Assembly: GCA_949298535.1 (NCBI GenBank)
Contig: CASFXA010000099.1
Coordinates: 1-34,764, forward strand
Length of the DNA: 34,764 nucleotides
Source: an uncultured Oscillospiraceae bacterium
Lineage (GTDB): Bacteria > Bacillota > Clostridia > Oscillospirales > Ruminococcaceae
Direction: 5' to 3'
In this document: one piece after another, positions 12,155 through 24,777 of the stretch
How the letters are laid out: the number at the start of each line of letters is the position of its first letter
Position numbering within the stretch: the first letter of the stretch is position 1
Made by a program: the position numbers and the translations under genes
The notes under the pieces: generated by a model
The model's input: only the letters and a program-made list of their open reading frames with translations
Told to the model about the DNA's origin: nothing
The model's database searches: none

Positions 12155-12937
12155 TCAGAAGGTGATGGGGGAGGTGAGGCGCCGCAGGGTAGCCAGGGTG
12201 CTCCAAGCCGCCAGATCCGGGCCCGGTACCTCGTGAGCGGGGCTGCCCTGCTGCAGGAAGATATGGGCCTTGCCGAAATCACCTGTGACATCCAGGGCGA
12301 AGCTGGAATATTCCTCAGGAGGAATGGGCTCCAGACGAACGGTGGTATTCTGCCAGTCCTGGCAGACCACACTGGTTGCGGCGGCAATATTGAGCCGCTC
12401 CGGATATTTGGAGACGGCGTCCCAGGCGCTGCCCTCATATTCTCCAGGCATTGCCCGGAATCCAGGAGGACATTTGGGGCACTCAGGAGGATATTTCTTT
12501 TGGGTCAGAGTCACCTGGATGGGGCCGTACAGCATCGCTGCGGCAATGACGTCAAAGCCGCCTACTGCACCGGAGGCCAAATGGATCTGGGTATGGTGCT
12601 TTCGGGCAACTTGGGAGATATACTGATAAAAGTCCTGATCCTGAAAAGCGCTGGCAGACAGACAGATCATATGGCATCCTGCCGAAAGAATCTGCTCTGC
12701 GCACTCTTTTACGGTATCGGCGTTGGAAGCGTCAATGAAATATTCCGGTTCCAGGGCGAGGACATCCTCCAGCCGCTGGTACCCCTGACAGCCATACAGC
12801 TGGGGGAAGGCGGCGGACTTTTCTTCATCCCGCTCCAGGATCCCCACCAGTTGGCAATCCTCCACCTTACCTTCGGATAAGCCCCGGGCAATAATCTTTC
12901 CCAGACGCCCGCATCCCAATAAAGCCACTTTGACCAC
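12155..12937 (-). CDS. L-aspartate dehydrogenase-like protein (DUF108/NadX type)
   Basis: 260 residues. The GTG at 12935-12937 is nine bases after AAGGAGG and gives MVKVALLGCGRLGKIIA; a TTG three codons upstream sits too close to that site. Residues 3-16 form the NAD(P)-binding GxGxxG turn. HLASGAVGGFDVIAAA (about 141-156) matches the catalytic-domain signature of aspartate dehydrogenases, which deaminate L-aspartate to oxaloacetate via iminoaspartate. Family length is about 240-270. Here it is the last gene of the TAXI transporter operon, 41 bases after the permease, rather than with NAD biosynthesis genes, so a catabolic role with another amino acid is equally possible. Family is fairly certain, substrate is not. 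Confidence 0.8.
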   Translation of the reverse strand: MVKVALLGCGRLGKIIARGLSEGKVEDCQLVGILERDEEKSAAFPQLYGCQGYQRLEDVLALEPEYFIDASNADTVKECAEQILSAGCHMICLSASAFQDQDFYQYISQVARKHHTQIHLASGAVGGFDVIAAAMLYGPIQVTLTQKKYPPECPKCPPGFRAMPGEYEGSAWDAVSKYPERLNIAAATSVVCQDWQNTTVRLEPIPPEEYSSFALDVTGDFGKAHIFLQQGSPAHEVPGPDLAAWSTLATLRRLTSPITF

Positions 12938-12978
12938 CGGCAACAACCTCCTTATGTTGGCAATGACAGTTTGTTTGC

Positions 12979-14856
12979 TCAGGCCATAGCCTTCTGCTGC
13001 TTCTTATGCTGCATCAGGCGTCCGCCGTACAGAATGGCAAAGAGGGCCCAACCGATCAGAGAGATGATGAAGCCGGACTGAATGGCGGTGCAGATAACCA
13101 CCAAATAGCCGATCCGCTCGAAGACTGTGATCTTCTGTTCCACATAGCCCTGGATCGCGCAGGCGGCGGCATAGCACACCACGAAGGCGGAAACCCAGGT
13201 GAAGAGGGTAATCAGGTCAAAGCCCATATGGAGATAATCGGTGTTCAGCGTAAAGACAAAGGGCAGCACAAATCCGGCGATCCCCAGCTTGACGGCGGTG
13301 AAGCCCACCTTCATGGGATTCTCCTCCGCGATACCGGCGGCGGCATAGGAAGCCACAGCCACAGGGGGAGTGATGGCGGAAATGCAGGCGAAATACAGCA
13401 GGAACAGGTGAGCCGCCAGGGGCATGACGCCAACCTTCACCAGAGCGGGAGCAATGGCAGTGGCGCAGATGATGTAGGAAGCGGTGGTGGGCAGGCCCAT
13501 ACCAAGGATAACGCAGACGATCATGGACAGCAGCAGGCTGAGGATAACGCTGTTTCCGCCCATGCTGACGATGAAGTCAGAGAACTTCAGGCCCAGACCG
13601 GTGAGGGCGAACATACCGGTAACGATACCGGCGCAGGCGCAGGCCGCCACAACGCTGGGGAGGCTCTTGCTGCCTTCCACGAAGCCGTCGATGATGCCTT
13701 TGAAGGTGAGACGCTCATGCTTATCCAGCAGACCGCAGATGACGATAGCAGCCATAGAGTAGATTGCGGCCAGCATGGGAGTAGTCTGGATGACCAGCAG
13801 CAGGAACAGCAGGATGGCCAGGGGGATAAAGAGCTTAAAGCCTCTGGCGACGGATTCCTTCAGGTTGGGAAGCTCATCCTCAGAAACACCCTGGAGGCCA
13901 TATTTGACAGATTCCAGGTCCACCATCTTGAACAGGGTCAGATAGTACATCAACGCAGGGAGCAGAGCGGCCAGACACACAGTACCATAGGGGGTGCCGG
14001 AAATGTCGGCCAGCACGAAAGCGGCAGCGCCCATGACGGGGGGCATAATCTGACCGCCGGTGGAAGCAACCGCTTCAACAGCGCCGGCAAAACGCTTCTG
14101 ATATCCCTGACGCTTCATCAGCGGAATGGTGAAGGCGCCGGTGCTGACCACGTTGGCCACGGCGCTGCCGGAGATGGAACCGAACAGGCAGCTGGCCACA
14201 ACGGCCATCTTGGCGGGGCCGCCCCGCGTTTTACCGGTGAGGGCGATAGAGATGTCCTGGAAGATCTTATCAGCTCCGGACACGCTGAGGAATGCGGCAA
14301 AGAGCAGGAACAGGAAGACGTTGGAGGCGGATACGCCGATGGCGGTACCCAGAACGCCCTGATCGCTGAAAATAGTGGTGACAACACGCTGGAAGCTGTA
14401 GCCGCGATGGCCCAGAATACCGGGCAGGTTGCCGCCGAAGAGGGCATAAGCCACAGTAATCAGGGAGATAATGGGCAGAATCCAACCCAGGCAGCGGCGG
14501 GTAGCTTCAATAACCAAAACTGTTACAATCAGACCGAAAACGTATAATCCGGTGGTCAGCTTGCCAGTCTGCATGATGACCACATAAGTGTCATAGTTGA
14601 AAATGACGTATGCACCAGAAATCACAGTGAGTACGATGCACAGCCAGTCAGCCCAAAGATACTTTTTGGGGTTTTTCTTACTCAGGGGTTTGTACAGGAA
14701 AACAAAGATGAGCCCCAGGGTCAGATGCCAGGAATAAAATTTAATGCTCTCCATGGGGCAGAAAGTAAATTGGCCAATGTGCAGCAGGCCGGTAAAAACA
14801 GAAAGTACAATAACGAAATACTTTCTTAATTTTTCATAGGTCAATTTTTGTTCCAT
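12979..14856 (-). CDS. TRAP transporter fused permease (TAXI type, DctQM-like)
   Basis: 625 residues from ATG 14854-14856, with GGGAGGAATAGT as ribosome binding site. Highly hydrophobic with about 16 or more predicted membrane segments. The first four are a DctQ-like small-subunit part fused to a DctM-like large subunit; typical phrases are SGSAVANVVSTGAFTIPLMK, GGQIMPPVMGAAAFVLADI and LGMGLPTTASYIICA. TRAP systems take up organic acids or amino acids with sodium, using an extracytoplasmic binding protein. That binding protein is the upstream gene, separated by a GC-rich hairpin. The substrate cannot be told from sequence; the operon context points to an amino acid or a derived carboxylate. 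Confidence 0.95.
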   Translation of the reverse strand: MEQKLTYEKLRKYFVIVLSVFTGLLHIGQFTFCPMESIKFYSWHLTLGLIFVFLYKPLSKKNPKKYLWADWLCIVLTVISGAYVIFNYDTYVVIMQTGKLTTGLYVFGLIVTVLVIEATRRCLGWILPIISLITVAYALFGGNLPGILGHRGYSFQRVVTTIFSDQGVLGTAIGVSASNVFLFLLFAAFLSVSGADKIFQDISIALTGKTRGGPAKMAVVASCLFGSISGSAVANVVSTGAFTIPLMKRQGYQKRFAGAVEAVASTGGQIMPPVMGAAAFVLADISGTPYGTVCLAALLPALMYYLTLFKMVDLESVKYGLQGVSEDELPNLKESVARGFKLFIPLAILLFLLLVIQTTPMLAAIYSMAAIVICGLLDKHERLTFKGIIDGFVEGSKSLPSVVAACACAGIVTGMFALTGLGLKFSDFIVSMGGNSVILSLLLSMIVCVILGMGLPTTASYIICATAIAPALVKVGVMPLAAHLFLLYFACISAITPPVAVASYAAAGIAEENPMKVGFTAVKLGIAGFVLPFVFTLNTDYLHMGFDLITLFTWVSAFVVCYAAACAIQGYVEQKITVFERIGYLVVICTAIQSGFIISLIGWALFAILYGGRLMQHKKQQKAMA

Positions 14857-14875
14857 ACTATTCCTCCCTAGAACA

Positions 14876-14902
14876 GTCCCCCGCGTTTGACGCGCGGGGG
14901 AC
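14876..14902 (-). terminator. Intercistronic GC-rich hairpin between TAXI binding protein and permease
   Basis: GTCCCCCGCG (14876-14885) pairs perfectly with CGCGGGGGAC (14893-14902), 7-base loop, with no T-run after it. It probably stabilises the binding-protein message or partly attenuates read-through, giving more binding protein than permease. Confidence 0.65.
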
Positions 14903-14925
14903 ACTTGCGCTTAACGGATCAAACT

Positions 14926-16011
14926 TTAGCCCTGATACTCGGGGGGGATCAGCTCTTCAGGGACATCAACACCCAGTTCCTTCAGGCAGCGGACGGTACC
15001 GGCATGGAGGTAGATGTTGGAGTTGAGGGTGTCCTCAGCGGTGCAATACTTCAGGCTCTGATGGATGATGGTCAGGTCATCAGTGCTCTCAAAGAGCATC
15101 TTGGTGATCAGATAGATCTGATCCTCAGGCACATCGCTGCTGGTGACCAGCATATTCCACTCGGAAACGCCGGCAACATCGTCGGGAGCGCCCTTGTAGA
15201 AGCCGCCGGGCATAGAGTCGGCCACATAGAAGTCATAGGTGGAGGTCAGGTAGTTCTGCTCATCCTCGTTGAGGGGGATAAAGGCCAGATCCTTGGTGCT
15301 CTCCAGCTCGCTGATGGCAGCGAAGGGAGGATAGCTGAACAGGATGGCGGCATCGATAACGCCGTTGCCCAGAGCGGTAGCGGTAGCGCCGTGGCCGTCA
15401 TTGTGCAGCTGCTTGGGGGTGATGCCCAGGTCAACAAACATCTGACGGAAGATGCTGTCCATAGCGGCGCCCTTGGAGCCCAGACCCACGATCTTGCCTT
15501 CCAGGTCGGAGAAGGAGGTGATGCCGGAATCCTTCAGGGTGTAGATGGTCAGCCAAGAGGGATACAGAGCGCAGGCAACACGGAGTTTGTCGTGCTGAAC
15601 GCCGGCAGTCCAGTCGGCAGAGGCGTTGACAGCCTCATACAGGGAGCTGGTCATGGCGATACCCAGCTCGGCGTCGCCGTTCTGGAGCATGCCCAGGTTG
15701 GCGGTACCGCCGCCGGTGGTCTCGGTGGTGAAGCTGAAGTAATCGGGCAGAGCGGAGTTGATAACCTGAGCCACGCCGCCGCCTACCAGATAGAAGTTAC
15801 CGCCCACGGAACCGGAAGCCATGGAATAACGGTAAGGAGAAGAGGGCTTCTCCACATCTCCGGCATCGAACTCGTCCACTTCCACCTCAACAGCGCTGCT
15901 CTCAGCAGAAGAGGCGGGAGCGGAAGACGCGGTGCTGCTGCTGGTTCCGGAGCAAGCGGTGGAAACCATCGCCAGAGCCAGAGCCATGACAAGTGCGATC
16001 AAACGCTTCAT
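14926..16011 (-). CDS. TAXI-family TRAP transporter substrate-binding lipoprotein
   Basis: 361 residues. A lipoprotein signal peptide (MKRLIALVMALALAMVSTAC) puts the lipid-anchored cysteine at 20, followed by a Ser/Ala-rich linker (about 22-40) and an acidic stretch. The mature domain begins near YSMASGSVGGNFYLVGGG, the hallmark of TAXI proteins. GGGTANLGMLQNGDAELGIAM and DLEGKIVGLGSKGAAMDSIF are also typical. It captures substrate outside the membrane for the fused permease encoded next. Known TAXI ligands include glutamate, glutamine and 2-oxoglutarate, but ligand prediction by eye is not possible. AGGAGG lies eight bases before the ATG. Gene order and the following hairpin fit higher expression than the permease. 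Confidence 0.95.
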   Translation of the reverse strand: MKRLIALVMALALAMVSTACSGTSSSTASSAPASSAESSAVEVEVDEFDAGDVEKPSSPYRYSMASGSVGGNFYLVGGGVAQVINSALPDYFSFTTETTGGGTANLGMLQNGDAELGIAMTSSLYEAVNASADWTAGVQHDKLRVACALYPSWLTIYTLKDSGITSFSDLEGKIVGLGSKGAAMDSIFRQMFVDLGITPKQLHNDGHGATATALGNGVIDAAILFSYPPFAAISELESTKDLAFIPLNEDEQNYLTSTYDFYVADSMPGGFYKGAPDDVAGVSEWNMLVTSSDVPEDQIYLITKMLFESTDDLTIIHQSLKYCTAEDTLNSNIYLHAGTVRCLKELGVDVPEELIPPEYQG

Positions 16012-16047: not shown

Positions 16048-16446
16048 TCAGAGTTTTTGCATATAAACCTTCAAAGAGCGGAAAGCCTTTCCTCCCTGAA
16101 AGCCGCCTCCGCACACCCGATTGCCATGGAGGGCTACAGATGCGTGGATGTGGACAAACAGAGGGCTATCGCCTTTGTAGATCTCTTTGAGGGCGGGATC
16201 CATCTTCTCCCGTGCCATGACCTCTCCGGTGAAGGAGAGCATTTCTCCGGGCAGGCTGCCTGTCTCGGTGACCTCCACCTGAGGAGGGAAGGTGTCGCTG
16301 ACAGGGGTGGTGAAACGGGCCTCGCAGACAGAACCGATGGCGCCGCTGATGTAGACGTTATCCCAGCCTTTTTCCAGGATAAAGGCCTCGATGGCGCTCT
16401 TGATGTCCTGTCCCCGGCCAATGACCAGTTCACAAACTTCGTTCAT
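16048..16446 (-). CDS. PPC/DUF296-domain protein
   Basis: 132 residues. The whole protein is one PPC (plant and prokaryote conserved, DUF296) domain: LVIGRGQDIKSAIEAFI, then YISGAIGSVCEARFT, LPGEMLSFTGEV and PLFVHIHASVALHG. In plants this domain is joined to AT-hooks; bacterial stand-alone versions form trimers and have no settled function. The usual GG.GGHL end of the motif reads VCGGGFQGGK here, so one expected His of the possible metal site is missing. Start overlaps the stop of the upstream flavoprotein by 4 bases. Co-translation suggests the two work together, but no biochemical role can be claimed. Confidence 0.8.
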   Translation of the reverse strand: MNEVCELVIGRGQDIKSAIEAFILEKGWDNVYISGAIGSVCEARFTTPVSDTFPPQVEVTETGSLPGEMLSFTGEVMAREKMDPALKEIYKGDSPLFVHIHASVALHGNRVCGGGFQGGKAFRSLKVYMQKL

Positions 16447-17816
16447 GCTCTTGCCTCCTTATCCACGCATTTCAGCGCCTGACTGGCGGCGATGAGGATG
16501 GGATCGTATACCGGGGCCACAGAGGGGGAATAGACCAGATCCAGCTCATTGAGCTCCATCACAGTCATGCCCGCGGTGATGGCGGTGGCCAGGACGTTCA
16601 TCCGGCCAGCAACGGTCTCGGTGCCGATGGCCTGAGCGCCCAGCAATCTGCCGGTATGACGGTCCAGTACCAGGGTCAGATGGTTCTGTCCGCCGCCGGG
16701 ATAATAGGACGCCCGGTCATTTTTGGTGATGGAGCAGACAGCGGGAGCGAACCCGGCCTGCTCCGCCTGAGCCTCAGTCAGTCCGGTGGAGGTAGCATAG
16801 ATCTCAAAGATCTTGGTCACCTGGGAGCCCAGCACCCCTTTGAAGGTGCTGCTGCTGCCGCCCAGATTCTCTCCGGCGATGCGGCCCTGTTTGTTGGCGG
16901 TGGTGCCCAGGGGGACATAGCAAGGCTGACCGGTGATGAGGTTCTTCATCTGCACACAGTCGCCGCAGGCATAGATGTCGCTGTCGCTGGTGCGCTGATG
17001 CTCGTCCACCACGATGGCGCCCTTGAAACCGATTTCCAACCCGCAATCCCGGGCCAGGTCGGAGGCGGGACGCACACCAATGGAGAAGAGAACCAAATCC
17101 GCCGGAAATTCCCGGCCATCGGAGGTTTTGACGCCGGTGGCCTTGCCGCTCTCGTCACACAGAACTTCGGCGGCAGTGGAGTTGAGGCACACCTCCACAC
17201 CATGTTTTTCCAGCTCCGCCTGGATGCTGGAAGCATAATCCTCGATGAGGAAGGGCAGCAGCCGGGGCATGGCCTCCACTACTGTCACCTTCATCCCCGC
17301 CTGGGTCAGTTCCTCAGCGGTTTCCAGGCCGATAAAGCCGCCGCCGATGATGACCGCCCGGGCCGCCCCTTCGGCCACGCGGGCCTTCAGGGCGATGCCA
17401 TCCTCCACCGTCCGCAGGCAGTGAACGCCTTTGGAATGGGCTCCCGGAATGTTGGGGACGATGGGAGTGGCGCCGGTAGCGATGACCAGTTTATCATAAG
17501 GTTTGACAAAGGTCTCTCCATTATCAAGATTCCGCACCGTCACAGTTTTGGCCTGACGGTCGATGCTGGTCACCTCATGGTGAATATAGGTAGGAATTCC
17601 CCGCTTCTCGCTCAGGGTCTGAACATTGAGGGAAACAAGGTCCTCCGCGTCGGCGATCATGCCGCCGACAAAATAAGGCAGTCCGCAGGCGCCATAGCTG
17701 ACGAAGCCGGAACGCTCATAAACCGTGATGTCCATCGAAGGGCACATCCGTTTTGCTTTTGAAGCCGCGCTCAGACCGGCCGCGGTGCCGCCAATGACTA
17801 CAAGACGCTCTCCCAT
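16443..17816 (-). CDS. CoA-disulfide reductase/NADH oxidase-type FAD oxidoreductase
   Basis: 457 residues. GGTAAGLSAASKAKR (9-23) binds FAD ADP, VIIGGGFIGLETAEEL (about 155-170) binds NAD(P)H, and IYACGDC is the second FAD motif. C44 in SYGACGLPYFVGG is the single redox cysteine that defines CoA-disulfide reductases, NADH oxidases and NADH peroxidases. The enzyme would reduce a disulfide, persulfide or oxygen species with NAD(P)H. No C-terminal rhodanese domain is present. It lies 38 bases after the DapA-family gene and overlaps the PPC gene, so it belongs to the transporter operon. Its presence in an amino-acid pathway may mean defence or thiol recycling; the exact substrate is open. Confidence 0.88.
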   Translation of the reverse strand: MGERLVVIGGTAAGLSAASKAKRMCPSMDITVYERSGFVSYGACGLPYFVGGMIADAEDLVSLNVQTLSEKRGIPTYIHHEVTSIDRQAKTVTVRNLDNGETFVKPYDKLVIATGATPIVPNIPGAHSKGVHCLRTVEDGIALKARVAEGAARAVIIGGGFIGLETAEELTQAGMKVTVVEAMPRLLPFLIEDYASSIQAELEKHGVEVCLNSTAAEVLCDESGKATGVKTSDGREFPADLVLFSIGVRPASDLARDCGLEIGFKGAIVVDEHQRTSDSDIYACGDCVQMKNLITGQPCYVPLGTTANKQGRIAGENLGGSSSTFKGVLGSQVTKIFEIYATSTGLTEAQAEQAGFAPAVCSITKNDRASYYPGGGQNHLTLVLDRHTGRLLGAQAIGTETVAGRMNVLATAITAGMTVMELNELDLVYSPSVAPVYDPILIAASQALKCVDKEARA

Positions 17817-17854: not shown

Positions 17855-18769
17855 TTATTTGACGCTGTACTTGGCGATGACGCCCATCTCGTCCATCAGA
17901 GCCTTCAGCTCATCATAGTGCTTGCCGGCATAGTCCTGATAGGGCTTACGCAGAGAGCCGCCGGGCAGGCCCAGGATGTTGAGGGCAGCCTTGATGACGA
18001 CGGGGTTGGACAGGTGATAGAGGGCCTGGAGCAGGGGGAACCACTTGAAGTACTCGGTGCGGCACTCCTCCATGATCTGCATACTGGTCCAGGGACGGGA
18101 GTACTTGGCAGCCTCTTCAGGAATGATGTTGCCGCCGATGTTGGCAGTACCGGTGCCGCCCACAGCCAGGGTGGGGATGACGATGGAGTACTTGGGGAAG
18201 TCGCAGCACATGATGTTGACCTTGTCGCCGCACAGCCGCTTGACCTGAACCAGCTGCTCCACGCTGCCCAGAGCTTCCTTGTCCACAACAAAGTTGGGAT
18301 GAGCGTCGCTCAGCTTCTTGATGGTCTCAGGCATCACCTGAACGCCCAGACGAGAGGGGTTGTTGTAGATACCGCAGGGGAGGGTGGTGGCGCTCATGCA
18401 GGTTTCCAGATGAGCATAAGCAGCGGGCTGAGAAACCAGCACATAGGGGGGAACGGTGAAGATGACGCCGTCAGCGCCCTCAGACTCGCAATACTTGGCC
18501 ATGGCGACGCTGTCGTCAGTGGTCATGGAAGCGCAGCTGAAGAAGACGGGGATACGGCCCTTGGTCATCTTGATGACCTCATGGACAATGGCCTTCTTCT
18601 CGTCCAGGCTCAGCAGAGTTACTTCGCCGGCGGAACCCAGCACGAACAGCTCGGAAGTGCCGTACTTGATCTGACGGTCAATGAGCAGTTTGAACGCGCC
18701 GAAGTCCACTTTGTTCTGGCTGTCGAAAGGAGTGGGCATAGCAACCCAGGAACCGGTAGGTTTAATCAT
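17855..18769 (-). CDS. DapA/NanA-family lyase (class I aldolase fold)
   Basis: 304 residues, the family's usual length. The Schiff-base lysine is K164 in FVVDKEALGS, and the assisting tyrosine is Y135 in GIYNNPSRLG. That stretch keeps the arginine (R140) that in dihydrodipicolinate synthase holds a carboxylate. The substrate loop reads GSAGEV (45-50) where the synthase has GTTGES, so this is probably not lysine biosynthesis. Relatives include N-acetylneuraminate lyase, keto-deoxy sugar acid dehydratases and the pyrroline-hydroxycarboxylate deaminase of hydroxyproline breakdown. The last is attractive beside an LhpBEF-like dehydrogenase, but no hydroxyproline epimerase is present in the window. 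First gene of the operon running to 12155. Confidence 0.9.
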   Translation of the reverse strand: MIKPTGSWVAMPTPFDSQNKVDFGAFKLLIDRQIKYGTSELFVLGSAGEVTLLSLDEKKAIVHEVIKMTKGRIPVFFSCASMTTDDSVAMAKYCESEGADGVIFTVPPYVLVSQPAAYAHLETCMSATTLPCGIYNNPSRLGVQVMPETIKKLSDAHPNFVVDKEALGSVEQLVQVKRLCGDKVNIMCCDFPKYSIVIPTLAVGGTGTANIGGNIIPEEAAKYSRPWTSMQIMEECRTEYFKWFPLLQALYHLSNPVVIKAALNILGLPGGSLRKPYQDYAGKHYDELKALMDEMGVIAKYSVK

Positions 18770-18831
18770 AGATCAGTCACCTCATATAAAATTTTTTTCA
18801 GCAACCCAACGGCTGCCCTTTGCGCAATTTC

Positions 18832-18860
18832 ATTATAGTAAAGGAGTGGTACATTTTCAA
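18832..18860 (-). promoter_or_regulatory. Promoter of the DapA-family/TAXI operon
   Basis: Minus-strand TTGAAA (18860-18855), 17-base spacer, TATAAT (18837-18832), about 60 bases before the start codon. A 16-base palindrome-like element GTACATTTTCAAGTAC (18849-18864) covers the -35 box, a place where a repressor could bind. Confidence 0.8.
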
Positions 18861-18891: not shown

Positions 18892-19043
18892 AATTTGATA
18901 TTATCTACCATTTATTGCGAATAAAATTTGGGCAAATTATCCTAATTTGTTTATTTTTTTCTTAAGCAATTCCCGAAAAGCGGGGGAAAAGGGAAGTTTT
19001 TTTTCGTCCATTTTGTTCAAAAAATGGCATAAAAAATCGTCAC

Positions 19044-19128
19044 CCATCTTTCTGAAAATAGCAAAAGATGGATGAGAAGGATAGATTTCCCTTCCCCCGG
19101 AAGGCTACAAATGTCTTTCCGGGGGAAG
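19044..19128 (-). terminator. Terminator region after the flavin oxidase gene
   Basis: Two hairpins follow the operon end on the minus strand. The first has CTTCCCCCGGAA arms (19117-19128 with 19091-19102). The second has CCATCTTT arms (19064-19071 with 19044-19051) and is followed nine bases later by a T-run (TTTTTT). Together they separate the dehydrogenase operon from the DapA-family operon. Confidence 0.65.
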
Positions 19129-19146: not shown

Positions 19147-20334
19147 TTAGTTTTTGGGCTGATGGAGATCAAAGCGGTTGGGATCAAAGGAGGACGCGGC
19201 AGGAATATCGCTGTGGCCGTCACAGATGAGATCCGCTACCAGCCGTCCGGAGATGGGAGCCAGGCAGATGCCGTCTCCCTCATGTCCCGCGGCGATGAAC
19301 ATTCCAGGCACCCCGTTGGCGTAACCGATGAGAGGCTTGGAATCCGGGGGATAGGGACGAACGCCGCCCATAGCCCGGATAATGCGCATATCCTTGAGGC
19401 CGGGCATCAGATGCACAGCGTTTTCCAGCAGCTCCTGAAGGCCCTCGTAGGTGTTGCAGGTCTGGTAGCCCACAAACTCACGGGTGGCGCCGAAGAGGAT
19501 GTTGCCCTTGTGGGACTGGGTCAGGGAGATGCCCACACCCAGCTGCGCCTTTCTGGAATGGTCGTTCTTCAGGGTGGCGGGATTGTGCTTGGCCACGATG
19601 TAGCGGGCGTTGAGGACGCAGTGGTTGACATAGGGAGCCACTGCCTCGGTGATGTACACCTGGCCGCGGCGGGGCTTGATGGGAAGGTTGAGACCCGCCA
19701 TCTCTCCGATAATGGGAGCCCAGGCGCCGGCGGCGTTGACCACTGTATCAGCGTAATAGGTTTCGCTGGCGGTGCGGACGCCAACCACCGCTCCGCCCTC
19801 CATCACCAGCCCGGTGACAGGGGTATAGGGATGGATCTCCGCGCCCATATGAGCGGCGGCATCGCTGAAGGCCAGGTTCATCTTAAAGGGATTGACCTCT
19901 CCGTCCACAGCGCTGTAGGTGGAGGCGATAACGGCGTCAGGATTGATGCCCGGCTGACGCTTCATGGCGTCGGCGGTGGAGATGATCTCCACATCCATGC
20001 CTCTGGCCCGCTGCTTGGCGGTGACATCCTCCATGATTTTCAGCTCCGCCTCATTCTCAATGAGGATCATGCCGCCCTTCTGGACATATTCAATATCGGT
20101 GCCCAGCTCTTTGGAGAGATTCTTGTACAGCTCTACGCTCTGCAGCGCCAAAGTCAGGTGATCGTTGGGGGCTTTGGACTGGGGGATAACCATCTGGTCG
20201 CAGGAGCCGCTGGCCCCGGCGCAGAAGTAATCCCGCTCCAGCTGAATGACCTTTTTGCCCCGCTTGGAAAGATAGTAGGCCGAGGCGCTGCCGATGACGC
20301 CGCCGCCGATGATGATGACATCTGCCTTATTCAT
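19147..20334 (-). CDS. FAD-dependent amino-acid oxidase/dehydrogenase (DadA/SoxB/HcnC-like subunit)
   Basis: 395 residues. DVIIIGGGVIGSASAYYL (5-22) is the FAD-binding Rossmann motif. Typical D-amino-acid-oxidase-fold marks follow: TVVNAAGAWAP, KPRRGQVYITE and a C-terminal GHEGDGICLAPISGRLVADLI. This subunit type oxidises the C-N bond of an amino or imino acid (glycine, sarcosine, D-proline, D-hydroxyproline, opines) and passes electrons to partner subunits. Its start overlaps the end of the BFD-like [2Fe-2S] gene by 8 bases. It is the last member of a five-polypeptide set comparable to HcnABC or LhpBEF. Substrate unknown. The two hairpins just after it end the operon. Confidence 0.9.
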   Translation of the reverse strand: MNKADVIIIGGGVIGSASAYYLSKRGKKVIQLERDYFCAGASGSCDQMVIPQSKAPNDHLTLALQSVELYKNLSKELGTDIEYVQKGGMILIENEAELKIMEDVTAKQRARGMDVEIISTADAMKRQPGINPDAVIASTYSAVDGEVNPFKMNLAFSDAAAHMGAEIHPYTPVTGLVMEGGAVVGVRTASETYYADTVVNAAGAWAPIIGEMAGLNLPIKPRRGQVYITEAVAPYVNHCVLNARYIVAKHNPATLKNDHSRKAQLGVGISLTQSHKGNILFGATREFVGYQTCNTYEGLQELLENAVHLMPGLKDMRIIRAMGGVRPYPPDSKPLIGYANGVPGMFIAAGHEGDGICLAPISGRLVADLICDGHSDIPAASSFDPNRFDLHQPKN

Positions 20335-20626
20335 GGTCCTCTACCTCCTTTTTGGGGGCGTCGGCGGCCAGATCCGCCACCGAAACGCTGCGCACCGGGA
20401 ACCGGTAGGGGCTGTGCTTGATGCAGCCGGGATCCACTTTCCGCTCCCGCAGCATCCGTTCAATGTTTTTCCGGCAGGTCATTCCCTGGCAAACGCCCAT
20501 TCCTGCGTTGGTGCGCACCTTGATGGCGGTGAGGGTGGTGGCTCCTTCCTCAATGGCCCGCTCAATGTCCGCTACGGTGATTTCCTCACACCGGCAGACA
20601 TAGATGTTTTCCTTATTTTCGGTCAT
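20327..20626 (-). CDS. BFD-like [2Fe-2S]-binding protein
   Basis: 99 residues from ATG 20624-20626, after GGAGGG eight bases upstream. It has the bacterioferritin-associated-ferredoxin motif: CRC at 11-13 and, about 33 residues on, CQGMTC. The motif is flanked by the usual helix phrase ITVADIERAIEEGATTLTAIKVRTNAGMG split around it. In sarcosine oxidase and D-hydroxyproline dehydrogenase the same domain is fused to or paired with the pyridine-nucleotide-like flavoprotein and relays electrons. Here it is a separate gene: its start overlaps the upstream ferredoxin stop (ATGA) and its stop overlaps the oxidase start. The last 30 residues are a charged tail with no match I know. Confidence 0.85.
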   Translation of the reverse strand: MTENKENIYVCRCEEITVADIERAIEEGATTLTAIKVRTNAGMGVCQGMTCRKNIERMLRERKVDPGCIKHSPYRFPVRSVSVADLAADAPKKEVEDHE

Positions 20627-21132
20627 TTGTCGAACCCTCCTCTTTGAATGGTGCGCACGGACATGCAATATTCCTTGGGCACCTCCACCGTGACGACGGT
20701 GGTGTGGTCGTAAGCAGCGGGAGAAAGCACTTTATGAACAGTTCCCATGGTCAGGAACAGACCATCGCGGCCTGCGCAGCGCACCTGATCTCCCTGCTTG
20801 GGCTGAGGAAGGTACTCGTAGGGGAAACTGACCAGAGAGGTGGTCTCGGTGTAGTTCTTATGCACATTGAAAATGGACAGGCCGGGGCACCGGGCGATGC
20901 ACAGGCCACAGCCGTTGCATTTGGAAGCGTCCAGATGGGGCAGGGCGGTCAGGCCCGGCTCCACGGTGATGGCGCCCCGGGGACAAGCCTCCTTGCAGGG
21001 ATTGCAGGGGATTTCCTGAGCGCACTCAATGCAGGCCACCGGTCCCAGCTCCAGCCGGGCGGCATCCGGTACCCCTGGCAGGGAAGCCAGCAGCTCCTGG
21101 TCCAATACGCCGGAATATTTTACGTCTTTCAT
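20623..21132 (-). CDS. Two-cluster [4Fe-4S] ferredoxin-type subunit
   Basis: 169 residues. Cluster motifs are CIECAQEIPCNPCKEACP (about 34-51, an expanded first site) and CNGCGLCIARCP (about 73-84). After the clusters comes about 80 residues of beta-rich sequence (VRCAGRDGLFLTMGTVHKV) like the electron-transfer subunits of anaerobic oxidoreductases. Overlaps both neighbours by 4 bases (21129-21132 and 20623-20626). It probably takes electrons from the flavin subunits toward ferredoxin or another acceptor. This subunit is absent from the aerobic HcnABC and sarcosine oxidases, so it looks like an anaerobic elaboration. It is not a generic free ferredoxin, given its length and its place in the overlapping gene chain. 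Confidence 0.85.
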   Translation of the reverse strand: MKDVKYSGVLDQELLASLPGVPDAARLELGPVACIECAQEIPCNPCKEACPRGAITVEPGLTALPHLDASKCNGCGLCIARCPGLSIFNVHKNYTETTSLVSFPYEYLPQPKQGDQVRCAGRDGLFLTMGTVHKVLSPAAYDHTTVVTVEVPKEYCMSVRTIQRGGFDK

Positions 21133-22226
21133 ACCTCTGCCTCCCTGTAAAACTCTTTGACGATCTCCTCTTTGGCCTGGAAACGGCGCTGGCCAAAGGC
21201 GCCGGAGCGCAGGGCGGCGAGATTTTCCCGAACAGCCTGTTTCTTCTCCTGAGCCTCCGCGGTGCCCAATCCGAGGCTTTCCGCCGCGGCGATGCCAGCC
21301 AGGCGGCCCTCCTCGATGGCGGTGCTGGCCTCCTCCACGCCGGCGATGTCTCCGGCCACATAGTAGATGGGATTGGAGGTGCGCATATTTTCGTCATGGA
21401 GAGGGATCAGCCCGCCCATGGTTCCGTTTTCAGCCAGACGGCATCCAGCCAGGGAGGCCAGTTCCACCATGGGTGTCAGGCCCACGGCCATGCAAACGGT
21501 ATCGGCGTCCAGCACCTTCTCAGTGCCGTCGATTTTGTTGAAGTGCTCGTCCAGGGCGATCAGCTCCACCTTTTCCACCTTGCCGTCGCCCCAGACCCGG
21601 TTGACAGTGTGGGACAGGTAGATGGGAACGGCGGAACGCTTCAGCTTGGCGGCATGGACCGCGTAGCCGCCGATGGCGGGAGCGGCCTCCACCAGGGCCT
21701 GAACGGTGGCGCCAGCCTGCATCAGCTGGTAGGAGATAATCAAGCCCACGTTGCCGGAGCCGATCATCACCACATTTTTGCCAGGGAGGACCCGATGCTC
21801 GTTAATCATGGTCTGAGCGGCCCCCGCGGTCATGACGCCGGGAAGGGTGGAACCCTCAAAGCAAAGGTTGTTTTCAATGGCGCCGGTAGCGAGAATCACC
21901 CGGTCTGCCTGGATGCTGCGAACCCCTTCCGCGGAGCCGTAGACCACCCGGCCGTCGGGATAAACGCCATAGACGGGATAGCCCAGGTGGACCTCCACCC
22001 CTTTGCTCTCGGTTTCCGCCAGCAGCTGACGACCAATGTCCACGCCCCGGACGCCGGCCTTGTGGGCTCTGGAACCGAAGAATTTGTGGATTTGTTTGAA
22101 CAGCTGTCCGCCAGGCTTTTGGTTCTCGTCGATGAGCATCACCTTGGCCCCTGCTCCTGCGGCCTGGATGGCGGCGGAAAGACCGGCAGGGCCGGCGCCC
22201 ACGATGACGATAAGATTCTTATTCAT
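21129..22226 (-). CDS. Pyridine-nucleotide-disulfide-like FAD subunit (HcnB/LhpB/SoxA-core type)
   Basis: 365 residues. IVIVGAGPAGLSAAIQAA (6-23) binds FAD; VVMIGSGNVGLIISYQLM (about 152-169) is the second nucleotide-binding fold; YYVAGDIAGVEEASTAIEEG closes the FAD site. There is no redox-active CxxC, as expected for HcnB-like subunits rather than thioredoxin reductases. Its start overlaps the end of the [2Fe-2S] gene by 8 bases, the same overlap geometry as the BFD-like/oxidase pair. With those genes it should form the core of a membrane-associated or soluble amino-acid dehydrogenase. The C-terminal 45 residues (AQEKKQAVRENL onward) are a charged helical tail. Confidence 0.9.
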   Translation of the reverse strand: MNKNLIVIVGAGPAGLSAAIQAAGAGAKVMLIDENQKPGGQLFKQIHKFFGSRAHKAGVRGVDIGRQLLAETESKGVEVHLGYPVYGVYPDGRVVYGSAEGVRSIQADRVILATGAIENNLCFEGSTLPGVMTAGAAQTMINEHRVLPGKNVVMIGSGNVGLIISYQLMQAGATVQALVEAAPAIGGYAVHAAKLKRSAVPIYLSHTVNRVWGDGKVEKVELIALDEHFNKIDGTEKVLDADTVCMAVGLTPMVELASLAGCRLAENGTMGGLIPLHDENMRTSNPIYYVAGDIAGVEEASTAIEEGRLAGIAAAESLGLGTAEAQEKKQAVRENLAALRSGAFGQRRFQAKEEIVKEFYREAEV

Positions 22227-22539
22227 GGGTCACATCCCCCTCTCCCAGACCATGTTGGGTGCGCACGTCCATTCCCTCTCGAACGGGGGTGACGCAGGTG
22301 CGCACATTGGGAACGCCGTCCACCACCATTTTGCAGTCGTTGCAGCGTCCGATGCCGCAGAACAGGCTGCGGGGCTGATTCTTTTTGGCGGTATAACGGA
22401 AAGTGCGGACTCCGGCAGCAACCAGAGCGGCGGCCACCGGTTCTCCGGTGACAGCGGGGATCTTTTTGCCGTCGAAATAAATATAGGTGTCCGGTTGACG
22501 GCTTTCACCCAAAATCGGATGATTTTCTACACGCATCAT
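22219..22539 (-). CDS. Plant-type [2Fe-2S] subunit (HcnA/LhpF/SoxA N-terminal type)
   Basis: 106 residues. YIYFDGKKIPAVTGEPVAAALVAAG is split by nature into a beta hairpin and helix typical of HcnA-like proteins. The cluster ligands lie in LFCGIGRCNDCKMVVDG followed by TCVTP, giving the CxxxxCxxC...C pattern. It is the entry or exit electron-carrying subunit of the flavin dehydrogenase encoded downstream. ATG at 22537-22539 has GAGGAG five bases upstream; the next codon is also ATG. It starts only 13 bases after the cysteine-desulfidase-family gene, so all six genes from 23824 to 19147 read as one transcript. Confidence 0.88.
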   Translation of the reverse strand: MMRVENHPILGESRQPDTYIYFDGKKIPAVTGEPVAAALVAAGVRTFRYTAKKNQPRSLFCGIGRCNDCKMVVDGVPNVRTCVTPVREGMDVRTQHGLGEGDVTHE

Positions 22540-22552
22540 ATGTTCTCCTCTT

Positions 22553-23824
22553 TTATTGACCGATCATCATATGCAGGATCTCAATATCTGTCTCTTTCAT
22601 GCCCACCTTGCCCAGGCGCATGATGTTGCGCACTGTGGCGTCGGCATCCTCAGCCACCAGACCTTCGCCGCAGCCGAAGACCCGGCCGCTGAGAGCCATG
22701 TCGCCGGAGAAAAGGGCGGCGTCCACGGCGCTGGCGATTTTGGCGGCGCAGGAAGCTTTGGCGCCATCGCAGACGATGCCGGAGGTGTTGGCCAGGGTAT
22801 TGATGATGGTGCGGCAGACGGCGTCATAATCTCCGCCCCGCAGCCAGGTGACAGCGGCGCCAGCGGCGCATCCGGCCCCCACGACACCGCAGAAGGCGGA
22901 CAGCTTGCCGATTCCGGATTTGATGTAAATGGCGGTGAGATTGGACAGGGTCAGGGCGCGGTACAGCTTGTCCTGGCTGACGCCCAGCTCCTTGGCGTAG
23001 GTGATTACCGGCAGGGAGACGGTCATTCCCTGGTTGCCGGAACCGGAGTTGATCACCACCGGCAACACGCAGCCTCCCATCCGGGCGTCGCTTCCGGCGG
23101 CGGGCATCGCCCGGGCCATGGTGCGGACATTGTTGCCATAGTTGGCCACCAGCGTTGCGCCGACACCGCAGCCGTAGGTGCCCTTGAGGCCCTCCTCAGC
23201 GATACGGGTGTTGCACTGGATCTGGCGGTCCAGGGTGGGGATGAGGGCTTCCAGATCCCCTTCGGTGGCAAACTGGAAGATGCTTTGGAGATCCATTTTG
23301 GGTTTGTCGGAGGAATCGGCCTGAGCGGAAGCGGTCTTTTCCTCGTACAGCGGCACATGATCCTTTTCCACTCTGGTGATATGGGTGTGGCCGTCCTGTA
23401 CTTCCACCAAAGCCTCATGCTCCCCGGCGAAGGCCCGCACGATGATGAACAAATTGCTCACATCCCGGATCAGCTCCACCTGGCAGATCTTTTTGGCCAC
23501 CAGCTCTTTGGTCAGCTGAATGTCTTCAGCAGTCGCGCCGGTGAGAACTTCCAGCTTCTTTTCGCTGTGGCCCACAATGGAGCCCAGGATGGCGCTGGTA
23601 TCAATGCCCTTCATGTTGCCGGTGGTGGGAACAATGACCCCTTTGACATTTTTGATGATGTTGCCGCTGCACTGAACGATGAGACGTTCTGGCATACAGC
23701 CCAGCACCTCTCTGGCCCGGGCGGCGGCAAAGGCGATGGCAATGGGTTCGGTACATCCCAGGGCGGGGACCAATTCTTCCTGAAGGAGAGCGGTATAATG
23801 CTCGCAGGTACACTTATCCAACAT
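22553..23824 (-). CDS. UPF0597/L-cysteine desulfidase family protein (CyuA-like)
   Basis: 423 residues, normal for the family (about 420-440). LVPALGCTEPIAIAFAAA (19-36) carries the first cluster cysteine, C24. The later cysteine-rich segments SAFCGVVGAGCAAGAA and IVCDGAKASCAAK hold the other ligands expected for the [4Fe-4S] cluster that activates water loss or sulfide loss. Characterised members break L-cysteine into pyruvate, ammonia and sulfide; the fold is related to iron-sulfur serine dehydratases. In this operon it precedes an amino-acid dehydrogenase, so another substrate is possible. AAGGAG is 13 bases before the ATG, a wide spacing. First gene of its operon, with a Crp-type site in the promoter. 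Confidence 0.87.
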   Translation of the reverse strand: MLDKCTCEHYTALLQEELVPALGCTEPIAIAFAAARAREVLGCMPERLIVQCSGNIIKNVKGVIVPTTGNMKGIDTSAILGSIVGHSEKKLEVLTGATAEDIQLTKELVAKKICQVELIRDVSNLFIIVRAFAGEHEALVEVQDGHTHITRVEKDHVPLYEEKTASAQADSSDKPKMDLQSIFQFATEGDLEALIPTLDRQIQCNTRIAEEGLKGTYGCGVGATLVANYGNNVRTMARAMPAAGSDARMGGCVLPVVINSGSGNQGMTVSLPVITYAKELGVSQDKLYRALTLSNLTAIYIKSGIGKLSAFCGVVGAGCAAGAAVTWLRGGDYDAVCRTIINTLANTSGIVCDGAKASCAAKIASAVDAALFSGDMALSGRVFGCGEGLVAEDADATVRNIMRLGKVGMKETDIEILHMMIGQ

Positions 23825-23976
23825 AGGTCTAATTTTTCTCCTTTGTCATCTCTTTTTGGTTTACAGGGATGGTATGGCGCGGAAAACAACAAAAACGTAC
23901 GCCATTCAATCCCGGGGAAACCACTGGCGCAAAGGGCAGCCGCCGAGATTTTTGGGTACGTTGTTTTTACAGCATC

Positions 23977-24093: not shown

Positions 24094-24777
24094 TCAGCGG
24101 GAGGACTGCATATAGCGATGGTATTCTTCAGCATTGACCTGAATTCGCCGATTGATGATTCTGATGAAGCCTTCGTTGCACAGCTCGGTCAGCTGGCGGC
24201 TGATGGTGACCCGGGCGCCCCCCACGATCTCCCCCAGCTCGCTGTGGGTATAGTGGATGCGCAGATTGTACCAGCCGGGGTCGGTCATATTCTCCCGTTC
24301 CACCGCAGCGCAGAAAAGCCGTTTCAGGCGGTTTTTGCAGGAATTGAAGGCCAGGTTGCCGATTTCATAGCGGAGGATCAGCATTTTTTGGGAAAAGCAT
24401 TGGAGAAGAGTGTCCCGGAACAATTCGTTTTCCCGCATCAGACGGTAGGTTTCGTTGACAGGGATCAGATAAATGGTGGTTTTGGTTTCAGTTTGAGAGT
24501 AAAGACTGGTCTCTTTGTTGAGAAACAGCGGCGTCTCCCCGAAAAACCAACCGGCGGAGAGCGTGTAAAGGATTTTGAAGCAGCCTTCATTATTGTCCAT
24601 GTAATGTTTGGTGCGGCCACTTTTAATATAGTATACTCCCTCAATTGTTTCCCCTGGCAGCTGAAAGATATGCTTGGGCGGGTAAACCAGATGCTGCGAA
24701 ATGGGGGCCAGCAGCCGGTCCAGCTCCTCACTGTCCAGTGAAGATGTCATCAGGGTAGAGCGTTCAAACATTTCCAA
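24094..24777 (-). CDS. Crp/Fnr-family transcription regulator with NtcA-like recognition helix
   Basis: 227 residues. The start is a TTG at 24775-24777, nine bases after GGAAGG; an ATG two codons later is the alternative. An N-terminal cNMP-binding-type beta roll (about 20-130) contains GVYYIKSGRTKHYM and AGWFFGETPLFL. There is no N-terminal cysteine cluster, so it is not an Fnr-type oxygen sensor. The C-terminal helix-turn-helix reads HSELGEIVGGARVTISRQL. R189, V190 and R194 correspond to NtcA's R187, V188 and R192, which read GTA-N8-TAC. Such a site lies just downstream of this gene, in front of the dehydrogenase operon. It probably activates that operon; the effector is unknown. Confidence 0.88.
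   Translation of the reverse strand: MEMFERSTLMTSSLDSEELDRLLAPISQHLVYPPKHIFQLPGETIEGVYYIKSGRTKHYMDNNEGCFKILYTLSAGWFFGETPLFLNKETSLYSQTETKTTIYLIPVNETYRLMRENELFRDTLLQCFSQKMLILRYEIGNLAFNSCKNRLKRLFCAAVERENMTDPGWYNLRIHYTHSELGEIVGGARVTISRQLTELCNEGFIRIINRRIQVNAEEYHRYMQSSR

Follow-up and report, generated by a model that had tools for sequence, protein, structure and literature searches.

Why should the gene for a cysteine desulfidase homologue (CyuA) stand directly in front of five genes that encode a flavin- and iron-sulfur-containing amino acid dehydrogenase? The question is raised by a stretch of 34,764 nucleotides (the window; contig CASFXA010000099.1) from the genome of an uncultured Oscillospiraceae bacterium, in which a sequence-only reading had singled out positions 19147 to 23824 as an unusual operon, with CyuA in fixed coupling to the dehydrogenase. 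We find that these six genes form the first of two units in a longer locus. The five-gene dehydrogenase complex, as judged from its families and gene order, is a common variant of known proline/hydroxyproline dehydrogenases; CyuA-family enzymes are found more often with the second unit, marked by a lyase of the DapA family, than with the complex; the window has both. We are highly confident of this architecture. We read the whole, tentatively, as a catabolic locus in which the complex and CyuA act on perhaps a cysteine-derived amino acid; a substrate of that kind is possible, on the doubtful side.

Twelve genes in two units

All six genes between 19147 and 23824 are present as open reading frames (ORFs) on the minus strand, and each family assignment is backed by Pfam (Table 1): CyuA is followed by the subunits HcnA, HcnB, Fd2, BFD and HcnC. 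The sequence-only reading was right about these genes, about the CyuA family of the first (Pfam SDH_alpha) and, as the Pfam families and the conserved gene order indicate, in taking the other five for a single flavin/Fe-S amine-oxidising complex. It had also described overlaps of 4 or 8 bases throughout; this is true of the four junctions between subunit genes (HcnA/HcnB, HcnB/Fd2, Fd2/BFD and BFD/HcnC: 8, 4, 4 and 8 bases), given that the internal ATG at 20626 is taken as the start of BFD (its ORF is listed as 20327-20668, with a TTG at 20668), but CyuA and HcnA do not overlap and are separated by 13 bases. CyuA and the five subunit genes look like one transcription unit. HcnB matches the alpha subunit of sarcosine oxidase (2gag_A) as well as 1y56_A.

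The coordinates 19147-23824 end with that transcription unit; the gene set runs on to 12155. The adjoining second unit, overlooked when the block was first delimited, consists of six genes on the same strand that encode the DapA-like lyase, a flavoprotein resembling CoA-disulfide reductase (CoADR), a PPC-domain protein, a TAXI-family solute-binding protein, a TRAP permease and a NadX-like protein; its DapA recurs with CyuA-family genes in other genomes (see below). The terminator-like hairpin between the units is missing from the output of a simple terminator scan. In a genome of the same genus (G002, locus L031), all twelve genes and the Crp-type regulator are found in unchanged order; the regulator and eleven of the genes are 86-99% identical to those of the window, and the NadX-like gene lies at the end.

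The five-subunit complex and its two branches

When Fd2 was searched against 61 related genomes, 53 gave matches at E ≤ 0.001, mostly to other ferredoxins; the strong relatives outside the window genome were in G002 (96%), G009 (69%) and G013 (39%). A scan of the genomes of 84,980 species supplied the best 80 of 115 Fd2 relatives; 65 (L034-L098) were taken as true relatives, and 15 (L099-L113, E from 2e-7 up) were set aside as unrelated ferredoxins. Among other genomes sampled, HcnC (E ≤ 1e-75) turned up in 4 of 393 from the order and 24 of 397 from the phylum; we used all four places from the former sample and 21 of 33 (in 20 stretches) from the latter. The resulting 89 complex loci (L034-L098, L119-L122, L152-L171) are a sample and cannot count as independent cases, as some share a genome or come from close species (e.g., L034 and L121); 85 have HcnB, and the four that lack it (L069, L075, L165 and L166) were dropped.

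Five separate genes in the window's order (HcnA-HcnB-Fd2-BFD-HcnC) occur at 54 of the 85 loci, and 13 more have a long, fusion-like Fd2 and no separate BFD. The Fe-S ligand cysteines are invariant in every aligned row, window included: eight of eight in 86/86 rows of Fd2, four of four in 80/80 of HcnA and four of four in 72/72 of BFD (no row comes from a locus in which the subunit is fused or missing). As motifs, two [2Fe-2S] and two [4Fe-4S] sites in the complex are well supported, and the earlier estimate of up to four Fe-S centres stands, with all 16 ligand cysteines conserved. By gene order and ligand cysteines, the window belongs to the five-subunit family of proline-dehydrogenase type. 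An AlphaFold2 model of Fd2 has a mean predicted local distance difference test score of 90.1 and retrieves no PDB chain at E ≤ 0.001; the C-terminal beta domain is without a named relative there.

Among characterised enzymes, the L-proline dehydrogenase of Thermococcus profundus has a gamma subunit that is a ferredoxin-like Fe-S protein. In its gene layout, the window complex has a similar cluster plan; as far as the portions of the reports available to us go, the alpha, gamma, delta and beta genes (pdhA, pdhF, pdhX and pdhB) form one cluster, and delta resembles the last 90 residues of alpha in Pyrococcus (PMC4364671, PMC4575208, PMC8704557). The two systems differ in that HcnA is a separate gene in the window and the window's beta (HcnC) lies outside the proline-type branch. 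The best solved relative of HcnC is proline dehydrogenase 1 of Pyrococcus horikoshii (1y56); however, it was solved as chains A and B, without separate Fd2 or BFD chains, and is nearer to the proline branch than to the window. D-hydroxyproline and flavin opine dehydrogenases (alpha4-beta4-gamma4, HcnABC-like) have equivalents of HcnA, HcnB and HcnC but, in the parts of their descriptions available to us, only these three subunits, with the second [2Fe-2S] motif inside alpha; no Fd2 gene is present in the plasmid clusters of hydroxyproline or opine type that were read. With the window's separate-gene order at 54 of 85 loci and a plan like Thermococcus pdhA-F-X-B, the block is not the unusual one it was first taken for.

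A tree of 80 HcnC rows has two branches (support 100/99); the first contains 49 rows, and the window is in the second. In a neighbour analysis of 68 loci (one representative per neighbour cluster was family-tested), all 13 loci with a pyrroline-5-carboxylate (P5C)-type aldehyde dehydrogenase cluster and all 9 with an aldehyde:ferredoxin oxidoreductase and ferredoxin pair fall in the first branch; the dehydrogenase of L049, with a score of 786.3, is above the L-glutamate gamma-semialdehyde dehydrogenase cut-off (613.6). In a second analysis, no P5C-type cluster was shared by at least two of the 29 loci clustered. Genes of the aldehyde:ferredoxin oxidoreductase family lie near the second-branch loci L158, L161, L163 and L164; we rejected this family as a mark of the proline branch because it occurs near loci of both branches, whereas the P5C-type dehydrogenase does mark it. 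HcnC of L035 (first branch) fits 1y56_B with 318 bits, HcnC of L155 and of the window (second branch) with 184 and 172. Because of its P5C-dehydrogenase loci and its far better fit to 1y56_B, the first branch is most likely L-proline dehydrogenase, and its five-subunit complexes apparently serve L-proline oxidation in anaerobes.

The window HcnC is outside that branch. In the second branch, R326 replaces Tyr, the GFSGHGF motif reads GHEGDGI and a stretch is inserted at 243-264. In the tree, the window's side also takes in the beta subunit of a hydroxyproline-type cluster from Arthrobacter plasmid p232 (97/90), the opine-type subunit of pTi AR125 is on the proline side, and another pTi has two such subunits, one on each side, the window-side one on a very long branch. 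A gene of the Asp/Glu-racemase family is present in the stretches of 9 of the 29 clustered loci, all in the window's branch (one representative was family-tested). An R-x-W motif in beta has been proposed for FMN (flavin mononucleotide) binding, in the part of the source available (PMC4575208); 48 of 49 proline-branch rows have R-x-W, 26 of 28 other second-branch rows R-x-F and all three window-group rows R-x-M. Because R-x-M takes the place of R-x-W in the window group, we are unsure that the window complex would hold FMN; of the two flavins first proposed, FAD (flavin adenine dinucleotide) is consistent with the motifs, but FMN is uncertain.

In G013 (L033, 10025-15429), the HcnC gene is present in two identical copies and HcnB once whole and once partial; a run of masked or unknown bases lies at the break, and the arrangement may be an assembly artefact.

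CyuA, the DapA module and a shared motif

Aligned with the CyuA of Methanococcus maripaludis (PDB 9he0/9fsl), the window CyuA keeps, save for the non-conserved Cys289, all residues that the available part of the structural report names as catalytic, cluster-binding or near the cluster (PMC12647591); the counterparts of Cys23, Glu25, Arg223, Asn239, Cys287, Cys329, Cys336 and Lys339 are C24, E26, R248, N264, C312, C352, C359 and K362. The three cluster cysteines and the Cys/Glu catalytic pair of an L-cysteine desulfidase are in place. The window CyuA thus resembles the CyuA/CdsB L-cysteine desulfidases in the listed catalytic and cluster residues but differs in having a dehydrogenase complex as its gene partner.

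That partnership is not fixed, contrary to the earlier proposal. No CyuA match occurs in the fetched stretch of any of the 85 other complex loci (at 52 of them, each flank exceeds 5 kb), nor in the 20 kb of L033, and none of 18 other CyuA places, three of them paralogues in the window genome, has a complex subunit within 4.5 kb. The search for the six-gene block that the sequence-only reading had proposed as a check finds it, among the loci examined, in the window and L031 only, the places where CyuA stands beside the complex. CyuA, the complex and the DapA unit were seen together in only two genomes of one genus among those examined. Titles, beginnings of abstracts and term counts in the literature, mostly without subscription journals, contained nothing that links CyuA to the complex or to the DapA module. 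CyuA-family genes, to which the window genome gives four matches, have neighbours of many kinds. One paralogue in the window genome (L221, 2366-6727) adjoins, by eye, genes resembling an amidohydrolase and a GntP-like permease.

In contrast, CyuA-family genes recur with the second unit. Relatives of the window DapA with 42-70% identity (E ≤ 1e-68) occupy 11 places in 10 of 298 other genomes (L241, in which the match has an internal stop, is counted among them but absent from the DapA tree and alignment). Within 9 kb, contig permitting, CoADR (44.8-59% identity) is present at 6 of the 11, with a 31% one at L245; the PPC protein is present at 7, TAXI with TRAP at 6, a CyuA-family protein (28-35% identical to the window CyuA) at 6, a Crp-type protein (42-50%) at 3 and the five-subunit complex at none. 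L237 lacks CyuA and has instead a pyridoxal 5'-phosphate (PLP) enzyme of the D-cysteine desulfhydrase/cysteate sulfo-lyase family together with a RidA-type protein. CyuA occurs at 6 of 11 DapA places as opposed to 0 of 85 complexes, which makes the DapA unit a more frequent partner of CyuA-family enzymes than the complex is.

A sigma-54-type activator stands beside CyuA in several module loci (by eye; that of L235 was family-tested). This resembles the arrangement in Clostridium, in which cdsB is under the sigma-54 activator CdsR, its gene alongside, in the part of the account available (PMC6615313). Family searches also identified OsmC and M20 amidohydrolase genes at L235. Beside the complex of a second congener (L032, 8118-12541), LarA-type racemase and altronate-dehydratase-type genes and, as named by eye, a GntP-like permease lie upstream.

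The DapA of this unit represents a distinct subfamily: its members form a clade (support 98/95) apart from the ordinary DapA of L163-L166, share a Cys-Cys pair (C188-C189) invariant in 12 of 12, and are in a clade separate from the Arthrobacter-cluster DapA, with which the window protein has 24% identity. With 188.2 bits, the window DapA falls below the cut-off of 206.15 for the dapA NCBIfam equivalog (4-hydroxy-tetrahydrodipicolinate synthase). We had considered L163-L166, which pair DapA with aldehyde:ferredoxin oxidoreductase, as hydroxyproline-like loci, and dropped the idea; their DapA score above the cut-off for ordinary dapA and are unlike the Arthrobacter DapA. The CoADR-like flavoprotein is under both equivalog cut-offs (TIGR03385, Table 1; NF007123, 425.9 against 458) and has Cys44 within GACGLPYF, which we take to be the active-site cysteine; the NadX-like protein is likewise under the TIGR03855 NadX cut-off (111.6 against 206.55 bits).

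The two units share a 15-base motif, GGCTGCCCTTTGCGC, which lies in the CyuA leader and again, inverted, just before DapA (Table 1). Exact copies occur at two places in the window-genome assembly (G000, 86% complete), both in this locus; in G002 the motif is intact before DapA but carries a single change before CyuA, and that change would still allow a G-U pair should the two leaders pair as RNA. Near-matches (at most one mismatch, seven genomes) are about as many as those to a reversed-pattern control, so only the exact copies are meaningful. G009 has one exact match to the motif pattern, with another base at the open position. The motif may be a protein site, present in both orientations, or else an RNA element. 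The leader stretch itself is more alike in G002 (87%) than are its flanks, and its fold has a z-score of -2.25 (4 of 200 shuffles were equally good). No Rfam family matched, and a DNA search of the 61 related genomes returned the whole leader from G000 and G002 alone, other matches being short, with E > 0.006.

Table 1. Features of the two-unit locus, in the coordinates of the window.
Feature	Coordinates	Strand	Basis
Crp/Fnr-family regulator, upstream of CyuA	24094..24777	-	cNMP_binding, HTH_Crp_2
Conserved leader before CyuA, foldable as stem-loop	23884..23975	-	87% identical in G002; RNA minimum free energy -30
15-base motif GGCTGCCCTTTGCGC in CyuA leader	23927..23941	-	
CyuA-family [4Fe-4S] cysteine desulfidase homologue, 423 aa	22553..23824	-	Pfam SDH_alpha 203.7 bits
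HcnA-like [2Fe-2S] subunit	22219..22539	-	Pfam Fer2_4 95.8 bits; invariant cysteines
HcnB-like FAD subunit, without BFD domain of its own	21129..22226	-	Pyr_redox_2 125 bits; 2gag_A and 1y56_A matches
Fd2, two-cluster [4Fe-4S] subunit with conserved C-terminal beta domain	20623..21132	-	Pfam Fer4 27.8 bits
BFD-like [2Fe-2S] subunit, ATG start	20327..20626	-	Fer2_BFD 54.5 bits; SO_alpha_A3
HcnC-like catalytic subunit, DAO fold	19147..20334	-	DAO 246.5 bits; best solved relative 1y56_B
Terminator-like hairpin and T run after HcnC	19031..19075	-	By eye and folding of HcnC-DapA gap; conserved in L031
Sigma-70-type promoter-like site of second unit, TTGAAA-17-TATAAT	18832..18860	-	11/12 matches; conserved in L031
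15-base motif GGCTGCCCTTTGCGC just before DapA, downstream of promoter-like site	18811..18825	+	Inverted relative to CyuA copy
DapA-family lyase, distinct subfamily, motifs YNNPSR, DKEA, CCD(F/Y)P	17855..18769	-	DHDPS 180.3 bits; own clade
CoA-disulfide-reductase/NADH-oxidase-like flavoprotein with Cys44	16443..17816	-	TIGR03385 423.1 bits, cut-off 578.8
PPC-domain protein	16048..16446	-	PF03479 47.8 bits
TAXI-family TRAP solute-binding protein	14926..16011	-	TIGR02122 222.6 bits, cut-off 84.35
TRAP transporter permease	12979..14904	-	DctM 303.4 bits
Aspartate-dehydrogenase (NadX)-like protein	12155..12946	-	Asp_DH_C 37.2 bits, cut-off 27

A possible catabolic pathway and its rivals

The reading that we tentatively favour would have the locus work as follows. 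In a presumably anaerobic host, the TAXI/TRAP system would import the substrate, an imino, N-substituted or D-amino acid, and HcnC would use its FAD to oxidise the C-N bond. Electrons would travel via the HcnB flavin and the [2Fe-2S] and [4Fe-4S] centres in HcnA, BFD and Fd2, and a soluble carrier would accept them. The imine product would be hydrolysed to a cysteine-like amino acid, from which CyuA would release ammonia, pyruvate and either hydrogen sulfide (H2S) or a different leaving group. Because a complex of the proline/hydroxyproline type is combined with some partner enzymes of the sulfur-amino-acid type, candidate substrates are thiazolidine-4-carboxylate (e.g., one formed by cysteine with an aldehyde or oxo acid) and other N-substituted or D-cysteines; L-thiazolidine-4-carboxylate is described as a proline analogue in the part of the literature available to us. 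We infer that DapA, a lyase of the Schiff-base type, the flavoprotein, the PPC protein and NadX would also have roles. A stronger version, in which N-blocked or cyclic cysteine is taken up, opened by the five-subunit complex and relieved of its sulfur as H2S via CyuA in a dedicated anaerobic pathway that also employs a new subfamily of DapA-type lyases and has both units under the control of one shared leader element, we consider improbable.

Several observations weigh against a sulfur-based pathway. A sulfur substrate, itself a prediction, leaves the DapA step unexplained. The second congener, L032, has the complex but no CyuA over roughly 9 kb of upstream sequence (the locus is truncated downstream). 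The association of DapA with CyuA is one between families and not orthologues (28-35% identity), and the 11 DapA places are not independent (L239 nearly duplicates L240, and the gene of L241 is broken and sits on a short contig); NadX is at none of them, and the PLP enzyme of L237 is under every curated cut-off. The position of the p232 hydroxyproline-cluster subunit in the HcnC tree rests on a long branch. Titles, beginnings of abstracts and term counts in the literature, mostly without subscription journals, contained nothing that links CyuA to the complex or to the DapA module.

The alternative that survives best, with a serious though less than even chance of being right, is that the substrate is a D-amino acid or opine-type compound unrelated to sulfur, with CyuA removing another beta-substituent or being a mere neighbour. 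The Asp/Glu-racemase-family genes, confined to the window's branch, suggest D-amino acids, the opine dehydrogenases share the alpha-beta-gamma plan in what is available of their description, and the many kinds of neighbour of CyuA-family genes are consistent with an incidental CyuA. However, the opine-type subunit of pTi AR125 is on the proline side of the tree (the window-side subunit of the other pTi is on its very long branch), and the recurrent linkage of DapA and CyuA together with the shared motif argue for the participation of CyuA.

A D-hydroxyproline dehydrogenase pathway is distinctly less likely. The p232 cluster, with its subunit on the window's side of the tree, holds genes for a proline racemase, a DHDPS-family protein, an aldehyde dehydrogenase and an M9 peptidase; a DapA gene follows the complex in the window, and DapA and aldehyde:ferredoxin oxidoreductase are near the complex elsewhere in the branch (L163, L164). 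But no PF05544 proline racemase/epimerase is found in three genomes (G000, 86% complete; G002, 97%; G009, 77%), the other members of the window's DapA clade stand without the complex, the window DapA is 24% identical to the Arthrobacter one, and the pathway gives no account of CyuA, CoADR or NadX.

That two unrelated units are neighbours by chance is very unlikely; a terminator-like hairpin and a strong promoter-like site separate them and each half is found alone elsewhere, but their order is kept in G002, and GGCTGCCCTTTGCGC precedes both units and is exact at only these two places in G000. To plain L-proline oxidation we give very little credence: the gene order is that of loci beside P5C dehydrogenase and 1y56_B is the best solved relative of HcnC, but the window HcnC is in a separate branch with other pocket motifs (GHEGDGI, R326), the proline branch is nearer to 1y56_B, and P5C dehydrogenase is absent among the twelve annotated genes. 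Electron bifurcation or delivery to ferredoxin, as first suggested, is extremely unlikely, and we found no evidence of it: Fd2 has two [4Fe-4S] motifs and its cluster region has HydB of a bifurcating hydrogenase as best fold match (57 columns, E 0.019), but that match, above E 0.001, covers a ferredoxin-type region common to many proteins, no high-potential partner is seen among the annotated genes, and amine/imine couples, near -0.1 V, are too high for ferredoxin reduction without one.

What looked like a unique operon thus consists of two modules, each of which recurs. In its five-subunit form, the dehydrogenase is common in the genomes searched, with a proline branch and a second branch that includes the window, and DapA-CoADR-PPC-TAXI/TRAP-CyuA is a recurrent gene set (L235-L245). 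If the favoured reading is correct in that the substrate is derived from cysteine, the locus would represent a new anaerobic route to H2S.

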